Of a stretch of 64,000 nucleotides of DNA, positions 6,602 to 61,667 are shown piece after piece (the first letter of the stretch is position 1; each line of letters begins with the position of its first letter). This stretch comes from Acholeplasmataceae bacterium (GTDB lineage Bacteria; Bacillota_I; Bacilli_A; Acholeplasmatales; Acholeplasmataceae), in contig JAIOQX010000002.1 of the NCBI GenBank assembly GCA_021108415.1, forward strand, positions 558,001 to 622,000, given 5' to 3'. Below the pieces are notes generated by a model. It worked only from the letters and a program-made list of their open reading frames with translations, had not been told where the DNA came from and did no database searches. The position numbers and the translations under genes are program-made.

Positions 6602-7954
6602 TTAATCTCTATATAGTGATTCTTCTCGATCTTCTTTAGCTGTAAATCTAGAATATTCAGTATCAAATCTAAAGCTTAATCTAATACCAGCCATACCTTG
6701 TCTATTTTTAGCAATACTTAATTCAACATCTCCTGTTTTCTTTTCAGGATCATGAATATAATAATCACCACGATACAAGAACATAACAATATCAGCATCT
6801 TGTTCAATTGCACCTGATTCACGAAGATCAGCTAGAACAGGTCTTTTATCTTCACGTTTTTCAACTTCACGAGATAATTGTGATAAAGCTAGAATAGGAA
6901 TTTTCAATTCTCTTGCCATTTGTTTTAAACTTCTAGAAATTCTTGCAACTTCTTCTTGTCTATTTCCTGATTTTGTATCTCCTTTAATCAATTGAAGATA
7001 ATCAATAATTACAAAATCTAATTTACCTTCTTGGGATAATTTTCTACATTTTGCTCTAATATCAGCAACTGTTACACTTGCTGAATCATCAAATGAAATA
7101 TTTAATAAAGATAGTGATTGGATACCACCTTCAAGATGTTGCCATTCTTTTGAAGTTAGGTTACCTGTTTTAATCTTATTATTTTCGACATTAGCTTCAG
7201 CTGAAAGCATACGAGCTGCAAGTTGTTCATTACTCATTTCTAGAGAGAAAATTGCAACTCCACTTTTTCCTTCTTTATTATGTTTAGCGATATTTAATGC
7301 TAAATTCATCGCAAGTGCTGATTTACCCATTGATGGTCTAGCAGCTAAGATAATTAATTCTTCTGGCTGCAAGCCAGCAGTCAATCGATCTAGGTTCTCA
7401 AATCCAGTGTGAAGACCTGTGATACCGCCTTTTTTATTTCTATTTTTTTCAGTTTTTTCTTTAACTTCTTTAATAACATCAGAGATTACTGCAAATGCAG
7501 ATGTTTTTCTTTTTTGAGCTAGGGCAAAGATTCTCTCTTCAGCTTGTGTTAAATATTCTTTAGCTTCTACATCTCCATCAAAACCTTGTTTAACAATTTC
7601 ATCAGCTAAATTAATGACTTGTCTTTTTAACGATCCATCTTTAACTAAATCAATATAGGTTTCTATATGCGCTGTTGATGGCACAAAATCAGCTAAGTCA
7701 AGGATGTATTTCATCCCACCGACTTTGCTTAGGTTTTGTGTTTGTTCTAATTTAGAACCAACACTTGCATAATCTATTTTTAAATTTTCGTTATATAAAT
7801 CTTGCATCGCTTGATAAATCAAGATATGACTTTGCTCAAAAAAATCTTCGTTATCTAATTGGTCTAAAACTTGTACAATCATTTTAGGATCTAGAAATAT
7901 TGAGCCAATAACAGATTGCTCTGCTTCTTTATGATAAGGTAAACTCTTTGCCAT
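6602..7954 (-). CDS. dnaB: replicative DNA helicase
   Basis: LIILAARPSMGKSALAMNLA, FVIIDYLQLI, SQLSREVEKR. Confidence 0.97.
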   Translation of the reverse strand: MAKSLPYHKEAEQSVIGSIFLDPKMIVQVLDQLDNEDFFEQSHILIYQAMQDLYNENLKIDYASVGSKLEQTQNLSKVGGMKYILDLADFVPSTAHIETYIDLVKDGSLKRQVINLADEIVKQGFDGDVEAKEYLTQAEERIFALAQKRKTSAFAVISDVIKEVKEKTEKNRNKKGGITGLHTGFENLDRLTAGLQPEELIILAARPSMGKSALAMNLALNIAKHNKEGKSGVAIFSLEMSNEQLAARMLSAEANVENNKIKTGNLTSKEWQHLEGGIQSLSLLNISFDDSASVTVADIRAKCRKLSQEGKLDFVIIDYLQLIKGDTKSGNRQEEVARISRSLKQMARELKIPILALSQLSREVEKREDKRPVLADLRESGAIEQDADIVMFLYRGDYYIHDPEKKTGDVELSIAKNRQGMAGIRLSFRFDTEYSRFTAKEDREESLYRD

Positions 7955-7963
7955 AATAAAATC

Positions 7964-8407
7964 CTACTTTTCTACGATATGTACTTCAAATTGCGCCTTT
8001 ATCTCTTTGTTTAAGGTTACAAAAGCTGTATAGATACCAACAGAATTTATTTCTGATTGTAGTTCAACTTTTTTCTTATCAATTAAAATATGATGCTCTT
8101 TTTCAAATTCTTCAACTATTTGTTTAGTTGTAATCGCGCCAAAGAGTTTTCCATCTTTACCGATTTGAATGCCTAATGTAACTTTCTTACCATCAATTTC
8201 ACCTTTTAAGGATTTCATTAATGCGATATGTCTTTGATTTGCTTCTAGCATTTCTTGTTTTTCTTTTTCTAATGTCTCAAGGTTTTCGTCAGTTGCAAGC
8301 ACTGCCTTTTTTTGATTTACAAGAAATTGACCATAACCATTTGCAACTTCAATGATTTGATTCTTCTTGCCTTTTCCTTTAACATCTTCTAATAATATAA
8401 CTTTCAC
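7964..8407 (-). CDS. rplI: 50S ribosomal protein L9, possible independent internal translation start (GTG)
   Basis: CAAGGAGGAGAAATCGTG at 8422..8405 (minus): strong SD with 7-nt spacing to an in-frame GTG opening the L9 domain. Confidence 0.65.
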   Translation of the reverse strand: MKVILLEDVKGKGKKNQIIEVANGYGQFLVNQKKAVLATDENLETLEKEKQEMLEANQRHIALMKSLKGEIDGKKVTLGIQIGKDGKLFGAITTKQIVEEFEKEHHILIDKKKVELQSEINSVGIYTAFVTLNKEIKAQFEVHIVEK

Positions 8408-10408
8408 GATTTCTCCTCCTTGACCATATTCTAATTCAATCATGTTTTTTAATTCATCCACGACTTCTTTAATTGATCTATTTTTTAATTGAGCAGCAGC
8501 AACACTAAAGTGTCCACCTCCACCAATTGATTCTAATAAAATTTGTACATTTACTTTTTGAAAACTTCTTGCACTAATCCCTACGATATCATCACTCATT
8601 CTTGAGATGGTAAATGCAGCATCAATATCATTGATTTGTAGTGCGGCATCTGCAACTTGTGCCAGTAAGATTCTATCATCATATATATCTCTTGTCACGA
8701 TAAATGCGAAATGACCTAAAAAGATTTCTACATGTGATAATAATTTATTAATTTCCATGGTTCTTAAAAAGTCTTTTCTAAGCCATGTTTTAACTTCTGA
8801 TGTATCAGCACCTAAGTCTTTTAGTTGTGCTGCAACTTCAAATGTTCTTGATCCGGTTCTATAGACGAAATTGTTTGTATCTACAACTAGACCTGCATAC
8901 ATCATGGTTGCTTCTATTGGTGAGATATGAATTTCTTCATTCATATTGTAAAATCCTAAAAGTTCCATAACAAGTTCAATAGTTGATGATGCTGATGATT
9001 CAATAATAGAGAACATTGAATTAAATCCTTCGTCTCCAACTCGGTGATGGTCAATAACAATAATTTTTTCTGTTTTTGTTAAAACTTCTGCATCCATCAC
9101 TATTTTAGGTGATTGTGTGTCTAGAACCATTAAAGTGGATTGAGCATCTAGAAGCTCTAAAGCTTCTTTTGATGTAATCATATGTTCCATAATTTCTTTA
9201 ATATCATCTTTTACTATGTTTATAATTTTTTGAACAGTACGGTCAAGTTTTTCATGATCGACAATCAGATAAATTGGTTTATTGGAAACTTTTGCCATGT
9301 GATAACACGCAATCATGGAACCAAAGGCATCCATATCTGCTTGATTATGACCCATAATAAATATTTTACTTGAATGATCAATAAAATCTTTAATCGTTTG
9401 TGCATTAATTCTTACACTTACTCTTGAACTTTTTGATGATGCATCATTTTTTGCTCCAAAATAAGTGATTTTTTGATTTTGGATATTAACAACAACTTGA
9501 TCTCCACCACGTTTTTCAGCAAGTTCAACAGCATTTTGAGCATAAACACCTAATGCTTCATAATCTATATCCCACGATGCAATCCCCATAGAAATAGAGA
9601 CTCTTACTTTATTTTGATTTGAAATATCTCTAATTTTATCTAATAGTTCAAATTTTTTCTCGATCATTAATTCAAGATTTTTACGATAGCATATTAAAAA
9701 GATTCTTTCATCTGAATAAGGTTTTAAATATCCATCATACAAATGTGCCCAATCATTAATAGCTGCTAAATATTCACCTTTTAACGATGATTGTTCAGAA
9801 ACATCAAGTGAGCCTAATGCTTCATCAAGGTTATCTAAATAGATAATCCCAAGTGCAGGTATTTGTTCACTATATTTTTTTCTAACTTCTTCTCTTTCAG
9901 TTACATTAAATAAATAGAAAAAGTTGATATCAGGTCGATAAGTTACATCATATTGACTTTCTTTGATATCAACAATAAATCTAACTTTATTAGAATTTGC
10001 TTGTGCATAAAGTTTTTCACTAATATCTTTAAGGTTTTTCCCATCAATCTTTTGTTCAAAAATAATCTTTGCGTGTGGATTTGCCCATTTGACTTCAAAT
10101 GTTTCATCACATGCAATAACACCAATTGGAAGTTCGTTAAACACTTCATCTCCAACTTGATTTACATGGTAGGATAACTTAGTCCACATAGATAAGCGAT
10201 TTTGTAAAGTTTTAATTTTTTGTCTAGTTTGAAAATTTAAGCTGTAATATAGTCCCACAAAAGCTGCAGTGACACTAATCATTAAAAAAGAAAAACTTAA
10301 AACCTCTTCAATTGAATCAAAAGAAGCATATGGTAAAAACAAATATATACTTAATCCCAATAAGACTAAGACGCTTCCTAATAAAATCCAACGTTTCATA
10401 TGGTTCAC
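7964..10408 (-). CDS. c-di-AMP phosphodiesterase GdpP (TM-PAS-degenerate GGDEF-DHH/DHHA1) fused in frame to ribosomal protein L9
   Basis: N-terminal two TM, PAS-like and GGDEF-like regions, DHH motifs GHNQADMDAFGS and VIDHHRVGD; C-terminal ~147 aa VKVILLEDVKGKGKKNQIIEVANGYGQFL is L9. Confidence 0.93.
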   Translation of the reverse strand: MNHMKRWILLGSVLVLLGLSIYLFLPYASFDSIEEVLSFSFLMISVTAAFVGLYYSLNFQTRQKIKTLQNRLSMWTKLSYHVNQVGDEVFNELPIGVIACDETFEVKWANPHAKIIFEQKIDGKNLKDISEKLYAQANSNKVRFIVDIKESQYDVTYRPDINFFYLFNVTEREEVRKKYSEQIPALGIIYLDNLDEALGSLDVSEQSSLKGEYLAAINDWAHLYDGYLKPYSDERIFLICYRKNLELMIEKKFELLDKIRDISNQNKVRVSISMGIASWDIDYEALGVYAQNAVELAEKRGGDQVVVNIQNQKITYFGAKNDASSKSSRVSVRINAQTIKDFIDHSSKIFIMGHNQADMDAFGSMIACYHMAKVSNKPIYLIVDHEKLDRTVQKIINIVKDDIKEIMEHMITSKEALELLDAQSTLMVLDTQSPKIVMDAEVLTKTEKIIVIDHHRVGDEGFNSMFSIIESSASSTIELVMELLGFYNMNEEIHISPIEATMMYAGLVVDTNNFVYRTGSRTFEVAAQLKDLGADTSEVKTWLRKDFLRTMEINKLLSHVEIFLGHFAFIVTRDIYDDRILLAQVADAALQINDIDAAFTISRMSDDIVGISARSFQKVNVQILLESIGGGGHFSVAAAQLKNRSIKEVVDELKNMIELEYGQGGEIVKVILLEDVKGKGKKNQIIEVANGYGQFLVNQKKAVLATDENLETLEKEKQEMLEANQRHIALMKSLKGEIDGKKVTLGIQIGKDGKLFGAITTKQIVEEFEKEHHILIDKKKVELQSEINSVGIYTAFVTLNKEIKAQFEVHIVEK

Positions 10409-10542
10409 CTACTTTAGACATATTATATCAATAATATGACCCTTTTTCAATCAAATAAGGTCGTATAAACCATTATCACAAATAAAAGGGTTCATCTCAT
10501 AATGATATCACGTTTTTTATGATAAAATATAGAAAATAACAG

Positions 10543-10632: not shown

Positions 10633-11175
10633 ATGAAAACTAAATTATTATATGTTGGTTTATCAATTTTGGTTTTAGGTTCGCTATTGTTTGTTGGTTT
10701 AATTATAAACTCAAAACAACCTAGTTTAGCAGATCTCGATGGTGAAATAAAACTTATTTCTAATGAAGTAGACGAAAATCAAGATTATGACATAGACCCT
10801 GTTATTTACAATTTATTCTTAGAAATCGGACAACAAAAAGATTTATTAGATTCACATCTATCTTCTATTGAAGCATCAAAGATGTATATCGAATCAAATG
10901 ACATAGAACTTAGCAGAAGAGATTTAATCTATATTAAATTGTCATTAGTTGAAATTAGAGCCTATAAAGGCTTATACATTGATACATTTAATTCCATCAA
11001 AGATGAATTTTCTGCATTAGAAGTTCCTTATGAACAACTAACTTTAGAACAGCAAGCTGAATTTGTACAATTTGTAACAGATGTATTAACCTATAGACTT
11101 GTCTTATTAGAAAAAGTGAATCTAGAATTAGTAAACATTATAAATATCGTTGAGATATATGAAGGTGAAAATTGA
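10633..11175 (+). CDS. single-TM anchored helical protein of unknown function, first gene of LytTR cassette
   Basis: ORF with AGGAGGTG RBS; N-terminal hydrophobic helix; TGATG junction with the next gene; ORF track uses an upstream TTG at 10627. Confidence 0.7.
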   Translation: MKTKLLYVGLSILVLGSLLFVGLIINSKQPSLADLDGEIKLISNEVDENQDYDIDPVIYNLFLEIGQQKDLLDSHLSSIEASKMYIESNDIELSRRDLIYIKLSLVEIRAYKGLYIDTFNSIKDEFSALEVPYEQLTLEQQAEFVQFVTDVLTYRLVLLEKVNLELVNIINIVEIYEGEN

Positions 11176-11621
11176 TGAAACTAACAATTGAAAAAATAAA
11201 AGATCAAAAAGAAATTGAAGTTGTTATAAAATGCAATCAAGAAAATGAATTAGTCAATGAGATTAAACATGCACTAACCTACTATCAAGTCGGTCTAGTC
11301 TGCAAAAAAGATGATCAATTTTTTCAATTAAATCCTCAAGATATTTATTATATCGATGCTCTTGGACATCAAGTGTTTGTTTATACAAAAAAGGAAGTTT
11401 ACAACATTGACCAAAAGCTATATCAATTAGAAAGTTTACTTGCACAAACTCCATTTCTTAGAGTCAATAAAAGTACGATTGTAAACACGAAGAAAATAGT
11501 TAAGTTTAAATCATTTATAAACGGTCGAATGGAAGCTCGCTTAGACAATGATGATCGAATCATGATTTCAAGACTTTATGTTCCTAAACTTAAAGAAAAA
11601 CTAGGAGGACAAAATACATGA
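11175..11621 (+). CDS. LytTR-domain DNA-binding regulator
   Basis: DIYYIDALGHQVFVYTKKEVYNIDQKLYQLESLL...FLRVNKSTIVNTKKIVKFKSFINGRMEARLDNDDRIMISRLYVPKLKEKLG is a typical LytTR domain. Confidence 0.92.
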   Translation: MKLTIEKIKDQKEIEVVIKCNQENELVNEIKHALTYYQVGLVCKKDDQFFQLNPQDIYYIDALGHQVFVYTKKEVYNIDQKLYQLESLLAQTPFLRVNKSTIVNTKKIVKFKSFINGRMEARLDNDDRIMISRLYVPKLKEKLGGQNT

Positions 11622-35590: not shown

Positions 35591-35604
35591 AAAATGCCTC
35601 CTTT

Positions 35605-35710
35605 GTAAAATAAAATCTCTCTTATGCCGAAAGACAAAAGAGAGAGAAATTTTATTTTCTATCACCTCGGTAGGAAATTAAGTCTTTTGACACCTACTGT
35701 CTTTGGTATA
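35605..35710 (-). promoter_or_regulatory. ribosomal protein L10 leader (autoregulatory)
   Basis: minus strand AGACAGTAGGTGTC...TTAATTTCCTACCGAGGTG followed by AAAATCTCTCTT-type hairpin; matches known L10 leader layout before rplJ. Confidence 0.8.
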
Positions 35711-35727
35711 ATTTTAAATATTTTTGT

Positions 35728-61490: not shown

Positions 61491-61519
61491 ATATGAAAAC
61501 AATAAAAAAAGATGTTTTC

Positions 61520-61590
61520 ATATCGTAGTCGTGAATTTTACGGCTTCACGGTAGAAACTTGACCACCACATTTGGTCGATTATACGATAT
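61520..61590 (-). promoter_or_regulatory. purine riboswitch aptamer, guanine type (C at the specificity position)
   Basis: ATATCGTATAATCGACCAAATGTGGTGGTCAAGTTTCTACCGTGAAGCCGTAAAATTCACGACTACGATAT; P1, P2, P3 all pair; conserved TATAATC and GTTTCTACC. Confidence 0.95.
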
Positions 61591-61667
61591 ATTGAATACT
61601 TTTTTAGTATAACAAAGATTTATTTATATGTAAAGATGAGAATGAAAGAAAATGAAAGAAATTACAT

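Follow-up and report, generated by a model that had tools for sequence, protein, structure and literature searches.

In Bacillota, the c-di-AMP phosphodiesterase gene gdpP (yybT) lies next to rplI, and the two are reported to be co-transcribed (PMC5575661; PMC3711813). While GdpP (YybT) and L9 are separate proteins in that arrangement, the gdpP of an Acholeplasmataceae bacterium has no stop codon of its own and runs into L9. How could ribosomes be supplied with L9 when the protein is encoded as the tail of a predicted membrane enzyme, and why would the enzyme keep such a tail? We addressed these questions by analyzing the locus in a window of 64,000 nucleotides, which is the whole stretch of DNA under study, and in related genomes.

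The fused gdpP-rplI frame

A first-pass annotation of the window had described one uninterrupted frame of 814 codons with the GdpP architecture followed by the whole of L9. This description was borne out: the frame is open on the minus strand from 10408 to 7964, and six Pfam domains lie in it in the order PAS_GdpP, GGDEF_GdpP, DHH, DHHA1, L9_N, and L9_C, each scoring above its cut-off. Because the GTG at 10408 lies inside a Shine-Dalgarno (SD) sequence, AGGTGA (10405..10410, minus strand), located 5 nt before an ATG at 10399, the long product likely starts at this ATG and would have 811 rather than 814 amino acids (7964..10399, minus strand; stop codon TAG at 7966..7964). A promoter-like element, TTGAAA-17-TATAAT with TG before the second hexamer (10422..10450, minus strand), has 11 of 12 consensus matches, which is a consensus match only, the promoter scan as a whole being at chance level.

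The predicted protein begins with a membrane segment of two hydrophobic helices (10220..10399; helices 2-21 and 30-89 in the structure model). The Pfam assignments that follow, likewise on the minus strand, are the PAS_GdpP domain (9902..10165), a degenerate GGDEF domain of the GdpP type (9470..9844), the DHH domain (8891..9367), and the DHHA1 domain with its GGGH motif (8438..8677). The catalytic-type residues of the DHH metal site and the GGGH motif were invariant across 50 fused proteins (H351, D355, D357, D427, D450-H451-H452, D507, and G627-H630). The L9 coding region occupies 7964..8407 (minus strand; L9_N 8407..8273 and L9_C 8215..7970) and matched the L9 model TIGR00158 with 102.8 bits (cut-off 58.6) at positions 1-147 of 148, both the N- and C-terminal domains being complete. 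The next gene, dnaB (6602..7954, minus strand), starts 9 nt past the L9 stop codon, and the conserved cluster order gdpP-rplI-dnaB holds at the fused locus. Membrane helices, PAS, degenerate GGDEF, DHH/DHHA1 with the invariant metal-site residues, and this gene order are all shared with GdpP (YybT), and the nearest solved structure is 9n0l. Furthermore, the genome encodes a diadenylate cyclase at another locus (DAC domain PF02457, E 3.6e-39), and the phosphodiesterase therefore has a substrate. The fused gene is predicted to encode a complete GdpP-type c-di-AMP phosphodiesterase and a complete ribosomal protein L9. A search of the genome (1.78 Mb, 99.85% complete) for a second L9 found none, the fused one being the sole match.

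Three other features of the window were recorded. A LytTR-family DNA-binding protein (11172-11621, plus strand) is encoded upstream of, and divergently from, the fused gene, and a ribosomal protein L10 leader (35601-35724, minus strand) and a purine riboswitch (61506-61607, minus strand) are ordinary.

The guess that such fusions might already be annotated in relatives also proved right. The NCBIfam equivalog NF011110/PRK14538, "putative bifunctional signaling protein/50S ribosomal protein L9", has the same architecture over nearly its full length (1000.4 bits against a cut-off of 707; model positions 57-835 of 838). Its name describes one bifunctional protein, with no reference to an internal start or to free L9. 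The fusion architecture is already known, and the new part is the putative internal start at the junction; a search of the open-access literature found nothing on the gdpP-L9 fusion or on its internal start.

A putative internal start site at the junction

The first-pass annotation had placed the junction correctly, at 8400..8425, and had missed an SD sequence and an in-frame start codon there. The mRNA from 8420 to 8403 reads AGGAGG-AGAAATC-GTG-AA, in which the SD AGGAGG (8415..8420, minus strand) is followed after 7 nt by a GTG (8405..8407, minus strand) that is the codon of L9 residue 1. The duplex energy of this SD with the 16S rRNA tail was -11.2 kcal/mol; a search of the window's own assembly found no 16S rRNA, and the tail, with its anti-SD CCTCC, comes from three other genomes of the genus. 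No RNA structure that might hide or shape the internal start was detected, the RNA there being unstructured, and a scan for a promoter inside gdpP just upstream of L9 remained at chance level.

We next consider whether this site is conserved, using the junctions of 143 fused genes, which span 59 genera in 10 families; related genomes are non-independent samples, and many of those surveyed are draft assemblies. Among the 141 fused genes without a second L9, L9 residue 1 is encoded by ATG in 131 cases and by GTG in 8. In the other two, both from genomes called phytoplasma-like (for genus g10, a label resting on genome size and near-maximal scores to the family model), an ATG lies one or three codons upstream. 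Where residue 1 is valine, its codon is invariably GTG, which accounts for 10% of the valine codons in these genes.

With one gene per genus (58 genera), the mean anti-SD energy at the L9 start was -9.3 kcal/mol, as against -1.3 at other in-frame ATG/GTG codons and -8.2 at the rplI starts of unfused relatives. When the same peptides were recoded synonymously with each gene's own codon usage, the mean was -6.0 kcal/mol (s.d. 0.28), and none of the 500 simulated sets was as low as the observed value. The signal forms a sharp peak some 16 nt before the L9 start and is confined to it. The SD core is found in each of the three codon phases, being read as GGE in some families and as KEE/QEE in others, and the linker peptide is otherwise barely conserved (identity 0.18). 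These comparisons indicate that selection acts on the internal SD as a nucleotide sequence. An exception is genus g10 (phytoplasma-like), in which the SD energy of -5.1 is no stronger than the codon expectation of -4.8, while the start codon is retained; the SD of the next gene is weak in this genus, too.

Distribution and origin of the fusion

Comparison of the junction with relatives, which had been proposed as a check, revealed the same fusion in four further genomes of the genus, which excludes an error of sequencing or assembly at that point. As the related-sequence scan of named genomes gave three loci only, the distribution described here rests on a separate genome survey. Among 160 genomes of the order, 153 of which have an L9 match, L9 is fused in essentially all, and the fused gene is present wherever assembly quality permits a judgment; the remaining genomes have fragments or no L9 match. 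Several genomes of the order (G401, G435, G449, G450, and others) seemed to have lost the fusion, but these cases proved to be fragments at contig ends or incomplete genomes. Elsewhere in the class, the fusion occurs in families f7, f14, f17, f21, and f22. A 397-amino-acid L9 frame in G143 and G205 was considered as another fusion and rejected; in this GC-rich genome the L9 frame simply has a long open extension. In the phytoplasma-like genome G428, two full gdpP-L9 genes score equally (C1:325974-328463 and C1:454124-456613), which may reflect a segmental duplication or an assembly effect.

In a tree of the phosphodiesterase core, two changes are needed to account for the fused and separate states, and family f5, with separate genes, sits among fused ones. 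Depending on where the tree is rooted, this would fit one old fusion and one later split. The nested f5 loci with separate gdpP and rplI are L159 (genome G002) and L165 (G015); in G002, a single TAA is all that separates the two genes, which share a reading frame, and this locus is perhaps a re-split fusion. In unfused relatives, rplI starts between -20 and +18 nt relative to the gdpP stop codon, and its SD often lies in the gdpP tail. The fusion can therefore arise through a small indel or the loss of one stop codon.

Lineages with a fused and a free L9

Five genomes have a free L9 gene directly after the fused gene, and they belong to two lineages: G072 and G467 in family f3, and G286, G293, and G300 in family f7. 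In the f3 lineage, the fused copy has lost the SD and retained the ATG, and in the f7 lineage it has lost both the SD and the start codon, the codon now being AAG, AAG, or ACT. The free copies in both lineages have their own SD, an ATG, and the GY of the conserved L9 motif, which is gone from the fused copies. Start codon and SD are thus both present in 133 of 141 genes without a free copy as opposed to 0 of 5 with one (Fisher p = 2.5e-6, a value that overstates the case because only two events are involved). In a tree of L9 sequences, in which several of the branches concerned are long, each pair of copies falls within its own family or beside its sister family, and we therefore consider that separate duplications occurred in f3 and f7.

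The fused L9 copies remain open after the duplication. Their dN/dS was about 0.12 for G072/G467 and 0.33 for G293/G300, with the most distant f7 pairs near saturation, and these values indicate purifying selection on the fused copies. The f7 fused copy is also diverging fast, showing 35-40% identity between G286 and the other two. In G087 (f7, genus g78; 97% complete), a sister of the duplicated f7 lineage, no L9 match and no convincing GdpP-L9 match was found, and the whole gdpP-L9 locus may have been lost. The two duplicated lineages serve as natural experiments in which the roles are separated.

Two probable products from one frame

Taking these results together, we consider it highly likely that the single frame has two products, a membrane-bound GdpP-L9 and a free L9 made by internal initiation. 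Translation from the ATG at 10399 would give an 811-amino-acid c-di-AMP phosphodiesterase in the membrane with a C-terminal L9 domain, whereas initiation at the GTG at 8407, directed by the SD at 8420..8415, would give a free L9 of 147 amino acids that would enter the ribosome. The arrangement would have arisen from neighboring, often overlapping gdpP and rplI genes when the gdpP stop codon was lost or a small indel occurred, with the SD and start codon of rplI preserved in the gdpP tail. The long product is probably made, because no stop codon has arisen in the linker. Two observations stand against this proposal: the SD in genus g10 is no stronger than codon usage predicts, and G072 and G467 lost the SD but kept the ATG. 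The efficiency of the internal site is also in question, since ribosomes translating gdpP would pass over it.

The first-pass annotation had implied a tie between a second-messenger enzyme and a ribosomal protein. The fusion is real and conserved; however, with a conserved internal start at the junction, a membrane-tethered L9 finds no support as the principal account, and tethering of ribosomes to the membrane is not needed to explain the data. If only the long protein were made, ribosomes would have to take L9 as a membrane-tethered domain, which would link them to c-di-AMP turnover. Although the uninterrupted frame across the order and the lack of another L9 in the genome agree with this idea, the conserved internal SD and start codon speak against it, as does their loss precisely in the lineages with a free L9. 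In addition, in the AlphaFold model, whose domains are confident and whose arrangement is uncertain (mean pLDDT 85, pTM 0.45), the final helix of DHHA1 (643-658) is separated from the opening strand of L9 (664-669) by only some six residues. With so short a connection, we infer that docking of the fused protein into the 50S subunit would be poor. We regard this explanation as very improbable. We give even less credence to the SD-like sequence being a translational pause at a domain boundary instead of an initiation site. SD-like motifs have been proposed to slow elongation, and this one does sit between two domains, but a pause would explain neither the invariant ATG/GTG at the correct distance, nor the restriction of valine to GTG, nor the loss of the start codon after L9 duplication. 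That an error in sequencing or assembly joined two genes is refuted, since nothing was found in its favor and more than 140 genomes, single-contig assemblies among them, share the fusion.

A different alternative, compatible with internal initiation, is that only the free L9 matters and that the missing gdpP stop codon is an accident of no consequence. The GdpP of unfused relatives does without an L9 domain, and the rapid divergence of the f7 fused copy points in the same direction. On the other hand, among the final 12 codons of the linker a mean of 6.6 could become a stop codon by a single base change, and the linker peptides vary freely, yet no linker stop was found in any full-length fused gene of the order. 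Fused copies stay open after duplication with the low dN/dS values given above, and splitting is possible, since the nested family f5 has separate genes. We therefore consider a neutral extension rather unlikely. Since the long frame persists even though a single base change would turn most linker codons into a stop, the sequences suggest that the L9 tail of the enzyme has some function. One conceivable function, which we put forward tentatively and think unlikely as it stands, is regulatory: the L9 domain might sense rRNA or the supply of ribosomes, for example, and set c-di-AMP breakdown in balance with free L9, a role that would stay on the fused copy after duplication while the ribosomal duty passed to the free copy.

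Implications

In-frame internal initiation occurs in bacterial genes such as infB, clpB, and cheA, and the proposed arrangement resembles these in that an SD and start codon within a long frame would give rise to a second, shorter product. What sets it apart is that this product would be an entire ribosomal protein that once had a gene of its own, and that in two lineages the two roles have come apart following duplication. The annotation of this family as a single "bifunctional" protein probably hides the ribosomal product. Two questions become testable: how much free L9 internal initiation yields, and why an L9 tail is retained on the enzyme. In this wide group of bacteria, a ribosomal protein is nested in frame in the gene of a second-messenger enzyme, and its own start site has been preserved.
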